From Aliiroseovarius zhejiangensis (GTDB lineage: Bacteria; Pseudomonadota; Alphaproteobacteria; Rhodobacterales; Rhodobacteraceae), in contig NZ_BNCH01000002.1 of assembly GCF_014656375.1 (NCBI RefSeq), forward strand, positions 124,001 through 188,000: a stretch of DNA of 64,000 nt, read 5' to 3'. A program made the translations under genes and the position numbers. This document shows, piece by piece, positions 1,918 through 6,554 of this stretch. The notes under the pieces were generated by a model. That model was not told the origin of the DNA and searched no databases. It saw only the letters and a program-made list of their open reading frames with translations. How positions within the stretch are numbered: the stretch's first letter is position 1; each line of letters begins with the position of its first letter.

Positions 1918-2016
1918 CCTAGGGGATTTACGTGCCCGTGCCGTGATCGACAAGTGCTTCACCCCGCGCGCGAAAGTGATTAGTCTCCGTTTCAACACAA
2001 GCATAGGGGCAGGTTG

Positions 2017-2979
2017 ATGAGTGGTTTGATTGCGCTGTTGGATGACGTGGCGGGCATCGCGAAAATAGCGGCGGCATCGGTGGACGACGTGGCCGGCCAA
2101 GCGGCCAAGGCGGGGGCAAAAGCGGCTGGCGCGGTGATCGACGACGCTGCGGTCACGCCCAAATACGTGCAGGGGTTCGAAGCCAAGCGCGAGTTGCCGA
2201 TCATCGGGCGCATTGCCTGGGGATCGATCAAGAACAAGCTGATCATCCTGTTGCCGATCGGGCTTCTGCTGTCCTCTTTCGCGCCCTGGCTGATCCCGCC
2301 GCTTCTGATGCTGGGCGGAGCATATCTGTGTTTCGAAGGGGCAGAGAAAGTCTGGCATGTGCTGTTTCCACATGAACACACCTGGGATCATGCCGAACAT
2401 GAGATCGGCGATCCGGCCCATCTGGAAAAAGAGAAAGTGGCGGGTGCGATCAAGACGGATTTCATCCTGTCCGCCGAGATCATGACCATTGCCCTGGCCG
2501 CCATCCCCGAAAGCAACATCTGGATGGAGGCCGCGACCCTGGCCGTGGTGGCCATCGGCATCACGGTGGTCGTCTACGGGTCCGTGGCGCTGATCGTGAA
2601 GATGGATGACGTGGGCCTGTATCTGGCCCAAAGCGGCCGGTTGTCGGCGACCCGTGCGTTCGGGCGCGGCATTGTCAACGCCATGCCGGGGTTCTTGAAA
2701 CTGCTGACCATCATCGGCACGGCAGCAATGATCTGGGTCGGCGGGTCGATCATCATTCACGGGTTGCACGAGCTGGGTGTGCATCAGCCCTATGAAATTA
2801 TTCACGACATCGCAGTGGCCGCAGCCCAGGCAGTGCCCCGCATGCCCGGCTTCGTCGAATGGGCGGTGACGGCCACGCTGGACGGCATTGTCGGGCTGGC
2901 GCTTGGCATCCTGATCATTCCCGTCGCCACCCGGGTGATCAGCCCGGTCTGGCAATCCGTGTTCAAGGGAAAGGCGTAA
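2017..2979 (+). CDS. DUF808 (YedI-like) integral membrane protein
   Basis: A 320-residue protein matching the DUF808/YedI family. It begins MSGLIALLDDVAGIAKIAA, a characteristic N-terminus. An Ala-rich region with VDDVAGQAAKAGAKAAGAVIDD follows, then several membrane spans: near residues 72-105 a helical hairpin, then about 155-185, 225-250 and 285-305. The family is of unknown function; it is predicted to sit in the inner membrane. The ATG at 2017 is preferred over the TTG at 2014; AGGGGC lies about 8 bases upstream. It is divergent from the gap gene and shares the intergenic region holding the tandem operators, so it could be co-regulated with gap. Confidence 0.85.
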   Translation: MSGLIALLDDVAGIAKIAAASVDDVAGQAAKAGAKAAGAVIDDAAVTPKYVQGFEAKRELPIIGRIAWGSIKNKLIILLPIGLLLSSFAPWLIPPLLMLGGAYLCFEGAEKVWHVLFPHEHTWDHAEHEIGDPAHLEKEKVAGAIKTDFILSAEIMTIALAAIPESNIWMEAATLAVVAIGITVVVYGSVALIVKMDDVGLYLAQSGRLSATRAFGRGIVNAMPGFLKLLTIIGTAAMIWVGGSIIIHGLHELGVHQPYEIIHDIAVAAAQAVPRMPGFVEWAVTATLDGIVGLALGILIIPVATRVISPVWQSVFKGKA

Positions 2980-3013
2980 GATACCTGCCGATGGTACACC
3001 TTGTCTTCGCAGA

Positions 3014-3027
3014 CCGTAGTTGTACGG
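3014..3027. promoter_or_regulatory. Perfect palindrome CCGTA-N4-TACGG upstream of the sensor kinase
   Basis: CCGTA GTTG TACGG lies about 36 bases before the kinase start. The same arms and spacing recur at 5180-5193, before the hbpS-like gene. Proposed binding site of the LuxR-type response regulator encoded at 4577-5185 (inference). Confidence 0.6.
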
Positions 3028-3062
3028 ATTGGCGGCGTCCGACCTTCCTGAGATGAAAGCGG

Positions 3063-4568
3063 ATGCGGTTCACGACGTCGACACTCCGATCTGCCATGCG
3101 ATTCCTTGCCTTGTGGGCCTGCGCCATCGTCATGGTGCTTGCCACGCTGGGCATTATGGAACGTCAACGCCTGGTGCGGGAACTGACCGTCAAAAGCGAG
3201 GGACTGCACCGGCTCGCGTCGCAGCGCGCAGATCAACATGATGCGCATCTGACTGCCTTGTCCGCCATCCTCGTGGCCAGCGAAGAGGCGCGTCAGGATC
3301 TGCTGATCGAGGTGGCGGCGACGATCACGCGCTTCTATCCGCGTATCGTGTCGGTCAACGCCCTGTCACTGGAACCGGCCCGACCGGATATCCAGACGCC
3401 GTTCGCGCTTGGCGCTCAGGATGCGACACGGGTTCGAGACATTGCCCTTCAGTCCACGGGCGCTTTGCAGATCGCACCATCGACCGTCGATGTGGATCGG
3501 TATCTGCTGGTGAAGCGCAGCCCGAACTCGCAGGCGGCGCGATATGCGCTTGCCCTGAACATCAATGCTGCGGCACTGGTGGCCAGTGACGATCCGTTCT
3601 GGCAACGTCCATCGGTGTCGCATCGACTGCTGAGCCCGCAGGGGGATGTGCCGACCGGGGGGTTGGCGACAGGGGATGCGACCTTTTCAAAGACGATTGG
3701 AAGCGCGTCGCAACCCTTGATCCTGGAAACGGCGTTGCGCATCCGCACAGCGGATCTGTTGCCCAATGGCACGGTCCTTGTGGCAACAGCCTTGGCGATG
3801 CTTTAGTTTTGGCTGGTTGCGCTGGGCTTGAAACAGCGGGCCCGCCGGAAAGAGGCTGAACAACGCGCCGATCTGAGCGCCCTGGAAACCCGGCTGGCAC
3901 ACGCGTCGCGGGTCAACGCGATGGGGGAAATGGCCAGCGGTATGGCGCACGAGCTTGCCCAACCCCTGACCGCGATCCTGAGCCAGGCACAGGCCGGACG
4001 CCATTTGGTGCGGCGTGGGGATGTCGAAGGTTTGGCACGGGTGCTTGATGATACGGTCGCACAGGCGCAACGTGGCGCGGACATCCTTGAACGGCTGCAA
4101 CGATGGAGCCGCCCCAACCGTGATCTGGCGCAAGCCTGTTCCCTGAATGATGCCGCGTTACGTGTGAAGCGCCTGCTGGGCAGGGAAGCGCAGGCCAAGG
4201 GGGCGGTTGTTACCCTGGACCTGCCCAACACGCTGTTGCAGGTGAAAGCCGATCCGGTCGAACTGGAACAGGTGATCTTCAACCTTGTGCGCAATGCACT
4301 TGATGCCGCAGACCGGGCGCGCGTCCTGCTCCGTGCCCGCCGGGTGGGGGACAGGGCCGTGCTTGAGGTATCTGATGATGGTCCCGGCGTGCCCGCCGAC
4401 ATACGCGAGCGGGTCTTTGAACCTTTTGTGACAGGAAAGAAAGACGGCACCGGGCTTGGTCTGGCCCTGTGTCAGCGCCTTGTCGAGGAAATGGGCGGTG
4501 ACATGGAACTGGTTTCCGGGACTGCGCATACCACGTTTCGGTTGTCTCTGCCGATTGCTGTTTCATAA
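3063..4568 (+). pseudogene. Membrane sensor histidine kinase interrupted by an in-frame TAG
   Basis: Reads as one 501-codon kinase apart from a TAG at 3804-3806. The first half (3063-3806, 247 residues) has a membrane span near residues 11-32 and a periplasmic sensor region of about 200 residues. The TAG falls inside the second membrane span: VATALAML, stop, FWLVALGL. The second half continues in the same frame with a basic/coiled linker, a HisKA box with the phospho-acceptor His in MAHELAQPL (codon 3948-3950), then HATPase motifs NLVRNALDAA, DDGPGVP and GTGLGLALC. A TTG at 3828 could start the kinase half alone, but no good ribosome site precedes it. The response regulator follows by 8 bases. 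A recent nonsense mutation, a sequencing error or amber read-through are all possible. The ligand is unknown. Confidence 0.85.
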
Positions 4569-4576
4569 ACTGGGGT

Positions 4577-5185
4577 ATGAGCAGAACGGTTTATCTTGTG
4601 GACGACGACGAAACGGTGCGCAGCGCGCTGACGCTGTTGCTGGAAACCGTGGGCGTGACGGTCAAGAGCTTTGCCTCGCCCGAGGCGTTTTTGACACAGG
4701 CCGCAAACCTGCCGCCCGGATGCCTGATCCTTGATATTCGAATGCCCGCGATTTCAGGTCTGAAGCTGCAGGAAAAACTGTCCGCGCAGGGAATATTCTG
4801 GCCCACCGTCATCATCAGCGGCCACGGCGATATCGAAGCCTGCCGCCGCGCCTTCCGCAACGGAGCGATAGATTACCTGCGAAAACCCGTGGACGAACAG
4901 GATCTGATCGACGCCATCCAGAAGGGACAGGCAGAGCTTGAAGCCTGTCAGCAGCGCGCCGCCGAACGTGCCGAGGCGCAGGCGCTTGTCAGCGCCCTGT
5001 CACCGCGCGAAAGCGAGGTGCTTGAGATGATCGCGAAGGGCGTGACCACCAAGCAGATCGCGCACGCCCTTGGGCTGTCACCGCGCACGGTCGAAAGCCA
5101 TCGCGCCGCCATTGCGGCCAAGGCCGGCACCACATCGACGGCGGAACTGACCCGCTTCTGGCTGGAGGCGCAGGGGGATCCGTAA
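4577..5185 (+). CDS. Two-component response regulator, receiver plus LuxR-type HTH (FixJ/NarL-like)
   Basis: A 202-residue regulator. The receiver domain (about 4-120) has the acidic cluster VDDDE at 8-12, phospho-acceptor Asp53 in LILDIRMP, a Ser81-Gly pair and Lys103 in YLRKPV. The C-terminal LuxR/GerE helix-turn-helix (about 138-198) reads LSPRESEVLEMIAKG followed by KQIAHALGLSPRTVESHR. It directly follows the kinase gene, so the two form a cognate pair. The gene's own stop codon lies inside the second CCGTA-N4-TACGG palindrome. This suggests that the protein controls the downstream hbpS-like/ankyrin genes and its own operon. The regulator itself is intact. Confidence 0.93.
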   Translation: MSRTVYLVDDDETVRSALTLLLETVGVTVKSFASPEAFLTQAANLPPGCLILDIRMPAISGLKLQEKLSAQGIFWPTVIISGHGDIEACRRAFRNGAIDYLRKPVDEQDLIDAIQKGQAELEACQQRAAERAEAQALVSALSPRESEVLEMIAKGVTTKQIAHALGLSPRTVESHRAAIAAKAGTTSTAELTRFWLEAQGDP

Positions 5186-5193
5186 AACTACGG
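5180..5193. promoter_or_regulatory. Perfect palindrome CCGTA-N4-TACGG upstream of the hbpS-like gene
   Basis: CCGTA AAAC TACGG overlaps the TAA of the response regulator (5183-5185) and lies about 85 bases before the hbpS-like start. It has the same arms and spacer length as the site at 3014-3027. Confidence 0.6.
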
Positions 5194-5277
5194 ACAGGGA
5201 TGCGGGCGTTACGAATATTCCGATATGGCAGGGCAAATTAGACATGGATCATCACGCAAACAAAAGGAAACTGACCG

Positions 5278-5760
5278 ATGATCCGCAAACTTGCACTCGC
5301 TATCATAATCGCCATGCCCGCCGCGGCGAACGCACAAGAGCTGCCCACCGCGCCTTACCTGCCGCTTGATCTGGCAACCAAAGCGGCACAGACCGCGCTG
5401 GACGCCTGCGCGGGCGAAGGTCACATTGTCAGCGTCGCCATCGTGGCGCGCAGCGGCGTGACCAAAGCCCTATTGCGCGCCGATAACGCCGGTCCGCACA
5501 CGGTCGGGTCAAGCACCGGCAAGGCGTTCACCTCGGCCAGCATGGGCCGTGACACGGCGGGACTTGCCGGTTTCATCGGCTCTGCGCCTGAAAATGACGG
5601 TCTGCGCGACATGGACAGCCGTCTGGTCATTCAGGCAGGGGGCCTGCCGATCAAGATCGGTGGCGCGCTGGTTGGCGGGATCGGTGTCGGGGGTGCCCCG
5701 TCCGGTGCGATTGACGAGACCTGCGCCCGCGCGGGCCTGGACGCGATCGGCGCGGAGTAA
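5278..5760 (+). CDS. Secreted GlcG/HbpS-family (DUF336) haem-binding-like protein
   Basis: A 160-residue protein with an N-terminal signal peptide (MIRKLALAIIIAMPAAANA, cleavage about residue 19). The mature part matches the GlcG/HbpS fold: LDLATKAAQTALDAC, then VSVAIVARSGVTKALLRAD, a GSSTGKAFTSAS segment, and the Gly-rich end GALVGGIGVGGAPSGAIDE. HbpS of Streptomyces is an extracellular haem-binding protein that modulates the sensor kinase SenS, whose LuxR-type partner SenR controls hbpS. The same three kinds of gene stand together here, which suggests a periplasmic redox or haem-sensing accessory. The sequence alone does not show haem binding. An ankyrin gene follows after 60 bases, probably on the same transcript. 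Confidence 0.88.
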   Translation: MIRKLALAIIIAMPAAANAQELPTAPYLPLDLATKAAQTALDACAGEGHIVSVAIVARSGVTKALLRADNAGPHTVGSSTGKAFTSASMGRDTAGLAGFIGSAPENDGLRDMDSRLVIQAGGLPIKIGGALVGGIGVGGAPSGAIDETCARAGLDAIGAE

Positions 5761-5820
5761 TGCAAACTGCGGCCTGTTGCCGACCGTGGTGGCGGGCCGT
5801 ACCGAAAGGGAGATATACCT

Positions 5821-6486
5821 ATGCTTCGCGCTCTGACCACTGTGTTCACCTTGGCGCTCTCGACCATGGTCCATGCCCAAACCGCCCCGTCGGCATCCGA
5901 CATTGCCGGGTATTCCGGGCTGCATCTGGCCGCGCATGAAGGGAGCGCCAAGGATGTAGCGGCGTTGATTGCCGCAGGTGCCGACCCCGACGCCCGCGAC
6001 CGGCGGGGCCGCACCGCCGCCCATGTCGCGGCCTTTGCCTCGCATGACGCGGTTCTGGAGGCCCTGGCAAAAGGGGGGGCTGACATGAACGCGCTTGAAC
6101 ATGGCGTCTACGACGTCATCACCATCGCGGCCGTGGCCGATGACCCGGAGCTTGTATCCTTGGCAATCGAGTTGGGAAATCGACCGGATCTGATCACCAG
6201 TGTCTATGATGGCACCGCGTTGATCGCCGCCGCCCACCTGGGACATCACGAGGTTGTGGCCCGTCTGGTTCAGGTCGGCGCCCCGCTTGACCACGTGAAC
6301 AACCTGGGCTGGACGGCTGTGATGGAAGCCGTGGTGCTGGGCGATGGCGGACCGGACCATATCGAGACAGTGCGCATTCTTGCAAAGGCCGGCGCGGATA
6401 CCTCGATCCCCGACCGTGATGGTGTGACGCCCTTGGAACATGCGGTCGCGCGCGGGTATGACGAGATTGCGCAGTTGCTGAGGTGA
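5821..6486 (+). CDS. Secreted ankyrin-repeat protein
   Basis: A 221-residue protein with a signal peptide (MLRALTTVFTLALSTMVHAQ, cleavage after about residue 19) and about five ankyrin repeats. Repeat marks are GLHLAAHEGSAKDVAALIAAGADP, then RTAAHVAAFASHDAVLEAL, TALIAAAHLGHHEVVARLV, TAVMEAV and TPLEHAVARGYDEIAQLL. A GGAGATATACCT sequence precedes the ATG. It is the last gene before the terminator at 6505-6536 and probably shares the transcript of the hbpS-like gene. Periplasmic ankyrin proteins such as AnkB of Pseudomonas aeruginosa support catalase activity; a similar stress role is possible but unproven. Confidence 0.88.
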   Translation: MLRALTTVFTLALSTMVHAQTAPSASDIAGYSGLHLAAHEGSAKDVAALIAAGADPDARDRRGRTAAHVAAFASHDAVLEALAKGGADMNALEHGVYDVITIAAVADDPELVSLAIELGNRPDLITSVYDGTALIAAAHLGHHEVVARLVQVGAPLDHVNNLGWTAVMEAVVLGDGGPDHIETVRILAKAGADTSIPDRDGVTPLEHAVARGYDEIAQLLR

Positions 6487-6504
6487 CAACACGTGTTGCA
6501 CAGA

Positions 6505-6536
6505 AAAACGCCCCGCAATCTCTTGCGGGGCGTTTT
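6505..6536. terminator. Bidirectional terminator between the ankyrin gene and transketolase
   Basis: A perfect 14-bp stem, AAAACGCCCCGCAA with its complement, has the loop TCTC. A and T runs on both sides let it stop the convergent ankyrin (+) and tkt (-) transcripts. Confidence 0.92.
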
Positions 6537-6554
6537 GCGTTGAAAAAATAGGTG

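Follow-up and report, generated by a model that had tools for sequence, protein, structure and literature searches.

The locus and its relatives

The window analysed here, a 64-kb stretch of the Aliiroseovarius zhejiangensis genome, contains downstream of a DUF808 gene a cluster of four genes encoding a sensor histidine kinase, a response regulator, an HbpS-like protein and an ankyrin-repeat protein (Table 1). Near its left end, positions 1-414 and 772-1770 of the minus strand read by eye as two adjoining glyceraldehyde-3-phosphate dehydrogenase-like genes, the first of which is cut by the window edge.

Table 1. Genes and putative control elements of the module, in window coordinates
Feature	Position	Strand	Remarks
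DUF808 gene	2014-2979		
Putative operator 1	3014-3027	.	CCGTAGTTGTACGG; upstream of kinase; right arm 30 nt before -10-like element
Predicted extended -10 of kinase promoter	3049-3057	+	TGA-GATGAA; lineage consensus CTGCGATGAA; weak match to -10 consensus
Sensor histidine kinase	3063-4568	+	membrane helix, dCache periplasmic sensor, HisKA, HATPase_c
FixJ/StyR-type response regulator	4577-5185	+	REC and LuxR HTH; phosphoacceptor Asp53; recognition-helix Glu173
Putative operator 2A	5180-5193	.	CCGTAAAACTACGG; predicted centre near -64.5 of hbpS promoter
Putative operator 2B (half-site)	5209-5216	+	TTACGAAT here, consensus CTACGAAT; 29 nt from operator 2A start; predicted -42 to -35
Predicted hbpS -10	5239-5244	+	TAGACA; predicted +1 = A5251 in CATCA
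HbpS-like protein	5278-5760	+	apparent signal peptide (by eye)
Ankyrin-repeat protein	5821-6486	+	apparent signal peptide (by eye)

The HbpS-like protein belongs to family PF03928, against which it scores 94.3 bits (gathering threshold 25 bits), and its best structure matches, 4bmw and 3fpv, are extracellular haem-binding proteins that we take to be Streptomyces HbpS. The regulator joins a receiver domain (PF00072, E 2.1e-24) to a LuxR/GerE helix-turn-helix (PF00196, E 3e-18), the architecture of FixJ/NarL-type regulators, and Asp53 is present in all 101 aligned rows, which represent 94 distinct proteins. It is not FixJ proper, reaching 181 bits against NCBIfam NF006900 and so staying under the curated cut-off of 255; its best relatives among solved structures are 1yio, the closest, and FixJ. 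Presumably 1yio is StyR; in the alignment it has K, V and H at positions 175, 176 and 179, which are the residues given for StyR in the excerpt of PMC5874301. As for the kinase, its N-terminus matched no Pfam family, and the model of its sensor domain (pLDDT 91.7) adopts the tandem PAS-like periplasmic fold of dCache domains; the ten best matches of this model (E 1.3e-5 to 3.6e-5; TM by query, 0.49-0.55; ~10% identity) were KinD, Mlp24, Mlp37 and a dCache diguanylate cyclase domain, and several of these structures contain small ligands.

Two palindromes with identical arms and a four-base spacer occupy the positions given by the original prediction, which had placed one upstream of the kinase gene, the other upstream of the HbpS-like/ankyrin genes and a LuxR-type response regulator gene between them; the gene contents agree on all three counts. 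Palindrome 1 ends 35 nt before the kinase ATG, and palindrome 2 overlaps the stop codon of the regulator gene (TAA 5183-5185), a point the prediction had missed. No further match to CCGTANNNNTACGG occurs in the window, where the two compare with a mean of 0.02 in 100 dinucleotide shuffles, none of which (0/100) contained two. Across the whole genome (3,419,431 bases, 19 contigs) there are three CCGTA-N4-TACGG palindromes, as against nine for the reversed control pattern, and the third, at C4:324792, lies inside an ORF that by eye resembles an exported solute-binding protein.

For comparison, the best 80 of 419 relatives from a search of the genome collection were taken as loci, and a family sample yielded eight high-scoring loci besides the window's, four of which repeat genome-collection loci. 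The detailed 88-locus set consists of the window, L028-L107, and L145, L147, L149, L150, L151, L154 and L156, with 87 distinct regulator genes; L144, L146, L148, L152, L153, L155 and L157 were left out, their genomes being already represented, and eight loci of the set share their regulator genes with L005-L012. Gene order was read in 88 rows (80 collection and 8 family-sample loci, 4 rows repeating others), the hbpS promoter was profiled in 86 distinct sequences, and the structure alignment comprised the window and 79 of 83 relatives. Of 13 further loci, five (L158, L160-L163) repeat regulator genes of the 88-locus set and eight are new. In every one of the 88 rows the kinase, regulator and HbpS genes follow each other in this order on one strand, an adjacency and orientation like that of HbpS-SenS-SenR.

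Conserved elements of the predicted hbpS and kinase promoters

Comparison among relatives supports the view that the palindromes are operators of the regulator itself, with amendments to the original prediction: the putative site is larger than CCGTA-N4-TACGG, the full form being T-CCGTAG-WW-CTACGG-A, and the kinase-side copy is specific to certain lineages. Measured against the wider family form CCGTAGNNCTACGG (CCGTAG-NN-CTACGG), which neither window copy matches exactly, each being off by one base, 75 of the 88 loci have a palindrome with at most one mismatch upstream of hbpS and 85 have one with at most two; in the other three (L041, L068, L097) there is no site within two mismatches before hbpS. 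When the upstream regions were base-shuffled, none of 20 rounds produced a site at one mismatch or fewer in any locus (0/88 each time). Furthermore, the palindrome lies within one mismatch in all eight new loci, exactly so in five, and is kept alongside regulators of 60% (L159) and 54% (L168) identity, the half-site being one base later in the former and absent from its usual place in the latter.

The profile of the hbpS promoter consists of T-CCGTAG-WW-CTACGG-A, a G at 22, CTACGAAT at 29-36, TA at 59-60 (97% and 95%) and, at 70-74, CATCA as the majority sequence (65-83% per base), with variable sequence between the elements and no conserved -35 hexamer. The TACGAAT-like half-site follows the palindrome at an offset of 30 in 81 of the 88 loci and of 31 in three, and is unrecognised in four. 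With the TA as the beginning of the -10, the start of transcription is predicted on the A of CA, the centre of the palindrome near -64.5 and the half-site from -42 to -35. Palindrome, half-site, -10 and start at fixed spacing, with the -35 missing, would make this an activator-dependent layout.

In 75 of the 88 loci the palindrome overlaps the regulator stop codon, always in the same register, and in the remaining 13 it is uncoupled from it. Coding constraint on the regulator C-terminus is insufficient as an explanation of the palindrome, because 12 of these 13 uncoupled copies keep 86-91 nt between their centre and the hbpS start.

Conservation upstream of orthologues, well borne out at hbpS, extends to only half of the kinase genes: a kinase-side site (at most two mismatches, within 200 nt upstream) was found in 44 of 88 loci, compared with 0-2 of 88 in 20 shuffles, and the other 44 have none at this stringency. 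Where present, it takes two forms, one in 29 loci, window included, at 43-61 nt before the aligned kinase start, and one in 15 loci at 95-111 nt. In the consensus of both forms the right arm is separated from a -10-like element (GATGAA after TGC; TATGCT) by 29-30 nt, matching the distance from half-site to -10 at hbpS. Our reading of this spacing is that the kinase-regulator operon would be activated by its own product, and transcription of the first form may start at or next to the kinase ATG, giving a leaderless message. The predicted autoregulation and activation are in this respect favoured at both promoters by the distance between site and -10-like element.

Regulon breadth and alternative readings

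Fifteen regulator-bearing genomes contain 51 sites that depart from the 12-base form by at most one mismatch, 26 of them in the module and 25 elsewhere by position, and 15 genomes without the regulator contain 27, which with rounded genome sizes amounts to ~0.43 (regulator-bearing, elsewhere) against 0.49 per Mb. The genus alone gives 10 such elsewhere-sites in seven regulator-bearing genomes against 14 in the 11 without. Since sites outside the module are no commoner than in genomes devoid of the regulator, the strong-site regulon looks confined to the module at one-mismatch stringency, small as had been proposed, and weaker targets may exist beside it. Nor is the motif frequent in the genome, which has three exact copies, with near-matches outside the module at about the background rate of regulator-less genomes. 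A wider regulon was considered and set aside on the strength of the same background rate, and we claim no further target. Nine of the 25 non-module sites were read, of which eight lie inside a called ORF and one (L138) between ORFs, the ORF calls being longest-frame only.

The exact form CCGTAGNNCTACGG occurs in six of the 149 genomes of the family sample, in four of them at the regulator stop codon, and is absent from five of the nine regulator-bearing genomes of that sample, this one included. In G045 and G100, which have no regulator match at E 1e-35, it falls between called ORFs and is taken as chance. Likewise taken as chance is a perfect CCGTAGGACTACGG at L140:1971-1984, which lies between ORFs ~0.8 kb ahead of a DUF808-like gene; that genome, too, has no regulator match.

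Whether the right arm is CTACGG or CTACCG is predicted better by residue 173 of the regulator, in the recognition helix, than by any other of its 202 positions. Residue 173 aligns with StyR Lys175, one of three residues proposed as DNA contacts in the excerpt of PMC5874301. Over 101 rows the base is C in 13 of 14 with Asp and in 4 of 87 with Glu (81 Glu rows once repeated genes are removed). This covariation, striking by count, is suggestive and not significant once relatedness is allowed for, because the tree holds too few independent pairs: ~3 changes of residue 173 against 6-7 of the base, with one or two well-supported independent pairs. The compact operator also makes a good test case for which recognition-helix residue reads which base.

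Could the operators serve repression instead, the regulator, phosphorylated or not, shutting off its own transcription and that of hbpS? For R. palustris, repression of nif genes by unphosphorylated FixJ is reported (excerpt of PMC13327599), and only 35 nt separate the end of the kinase-side site from the kinase start. However, at both promoters a half-site stands 29-30 nt upstream of the -10, in the place of the -35, which is the layout of an activator, and no operator-like sequence is conserved over the -10 or +1; we regard repression as unlikely. An RNA hairpin that ends the regulator transcript, as a terminator or a processing site, would also be palindromic and lie at the end of the gene, and pairing would equally be expected to produce the joint change of both arms seen in 6 of 88 loci (the CGG..CCG group). 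Yet no terminator-like site is predicted there and no Rfam match was obtained, a symmetry-breaking variant is common (sites beginning CA with a GG end, 19 of 88 loci), and the palindrome both recurs upstream of the kinase and is followed at fixed spacing by a direct half-site, all of which makes a hairpin extremely improbable.

It is, finally, very unlikely that another regulator binds the operators and that their linkage to the encoded one is incidental. Such a reading would gain from the interruption of the kinase here and from the fact that binding by the encoded regulator is deduced from sequence comparison, but the sites accompany the regulator gene through different orders and on plasmids, and occur at background rate in genomes without it. 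Moreover, in 14 of the 15 loci with paralogous regulators (L013-L027) nothing comes within one mismatch of CCGTAN4TACGG, and the single match, in L017, is far from the stop codon of its regulator. We thus hold it highly probable that the palindromes are operators of the FixJ-family regulator encoded between them and that its regulon nearly coincides with a mobile cassette. The comparison demonstrates the motif, its placement and conservation, its confinement at one-mismatch stringency and the mobility of the module; binding, activation and the arrangement of dimers are what the sequences lead us to expect.

A mobile module and its relation to known systems

The module has a patchy distribution. 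Matches to the regulator, this genome counted, are found in seven of 21 genomes of the genus, nine of 149 of the family sample (E below 1e-80), four of 385 of the class sample and six of 398 of the phylum sample. In the 88 stretches that hold the loci (up to ~11 kb), the largest non-module, non-overlapping gene family is present in nine loci. At E 1e-50 the regulator has matches in twenty plasmid records; one conjugative plasmid (L163) carries all four genes, and its regulator gene is base-for-base identical to those of Roseobacter sp. MED193 (L042) and Thalassobacter stenotrophicus (L046), that is, across three genera. The kinase, regulator and HbpS genes are plasmid-borne in L163, L164, L165 and L166, with generic annotations only. 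In the genus, DUF808 is followed by transketolase at 0.2-1.4 kb with no module gene between (17 measured of 20 relatives). Here the module sits in that interval (window 2980-6554), the gap being 3.6 kb, and in the six other module-bearing genomes of the genus it lies at other places. Its location between these two neighbours here and at other places in other members of the genus points to horizontal movement, as do the plasmid copies and the identical regulator gene in three genera.

In the window, an in-frame TAG (3804-3806), also missed by the prediction, splits the kinase gene into open halves at 3063-3803 and 3807-4565. The kinase frame is open in 85 of the 88 loci, the other breaks being in L041, a metagenome-assembled genome, and L093. 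Of 21 compared, the window has the most divergent kinase, regulator and HbpS, by a narrow margin for HbpS and by the widest for the kinase sensor (mean identity 56.7% versus 62.4-74.7%). A sequencing error, recent decay or a late stop on a deep branch could each account for this state, and the module may be decaying in the A. zhejiangensis genome, where the kinase is interrupted and both operators are one base off the family form.

In the mechanism that we propose, a regulator dimer would bind T-CCGTAG-WW-CTACGG-A. Two such dimers would act at the hbpS promoter, the first occupying the palindrome (~-64.5) and the other, two helical turns further downstream, the CTACGAAT half-site (~-43.5), and would recruit polymerase to a -10 that lacks a conserved -35. 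In front of the kinase gene, the -43.5 position would be filled by the palindrome, resulting in positive autoregulation. The regulon would then nearly equal the mobile cassette, comprising the kinase, the regulator, the HbpS-like protein and, in most copies, the ankyrin protein. The periplasmic dCache domain would be the sensing part of the kinase and the exported HbpS-like and ankyrin proteins the output, which, more speculatively, as with the nature of the signal, may feed back on the kinase. For the HbpS-like protein such feedback is a natural guess by analogy with Streptomyces, whose exported HbpS modulates the kinase SenS (excerpt of PMC4991794).

This arrangement is reminiscent of the redox system HbpS-SenS-SenR of Streptomyces, in which a secreted HbpS, a membrane kinase and an HTH response regulator are likewise encoded together. 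However, the order here is kinase-regulator-HbpS and not hbpS-senS-senR, the kinase has a dCache sensor with HisKA/HATPase_c, the regulator is of FixJ/StyR type, an ankyrin protein is added, the host is proteobacterial, and the palindromic operator is unlike the SenRc consensus CGGGCCGCGTCCCG reported in the excerpt of PMC4991794. According to this 2016 paper, clustering of hbpS-like genes with senS/senR is restricted to a number of actinobacteria. The association of an HbpS-like gene with two-component genes described here is a different one, and proteobacterial.

Rhizobial FixL-FixJ offers a second comparison. At fixK of S. meliloti, FixJ occupies -69/-44 and -57/-31, and the sites that it selects contain GTAG (excerpt of PMC4999443), so that promoter positions are similar and the GTAG core is common, whereas the regulator here falls below the FixJ model cut-off and operator, sensor and targets differ. 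With the StyR/TodT boxes (ATAAAC-N4-GTTTAT; excerpt of PMC5874301) the sites share the arms-N4-arms geometry but not the arm sequence; here the kinase is a membrane dCache protein, and, unlike in StyR/TodT, no aromatic catabolism genes were seen beside the module. Among the matches listed in the open-licence PMC literature, we found no paper on the cassette or its operator. The present comparison provides this scattered two-component system with an operator precise enough to be tested, with a predicted arrangement of its promoters and with a closed regulon, and it links exported proteins of the HbpS type with proteobacterial two-component signalling.

Whether the likeness to HbpS-SenS-SenR goes further is a matter on which we are tentative, leaning slightly to the sceptical side: the module could be a four-part mobile cassette whose regulator controls almost only its own genes, with exported HbpS and periplasmic ankyrin protein acting back on the dCache kinase, hence an independently assembled proteobacterial counterpart of HbpS-SenS-SenR whose main product is the sensor apparatus. 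If HbpS/ankyrin feedback were true, sensing through accessory proteins of the HbpS-SenS-SenR kind would not be only actinobacterial.

An ankyrin gene follows hbpS in 62 of the 88 gene-order rows, was not found in 23 and lies elsewhere in three. Ankyrin-repeat genes also lie near the module at L166:1237-1917 and L165:7960-8550; in Martelella, one such gene precedes the kinase gene and hbpS has none immediately behind it.
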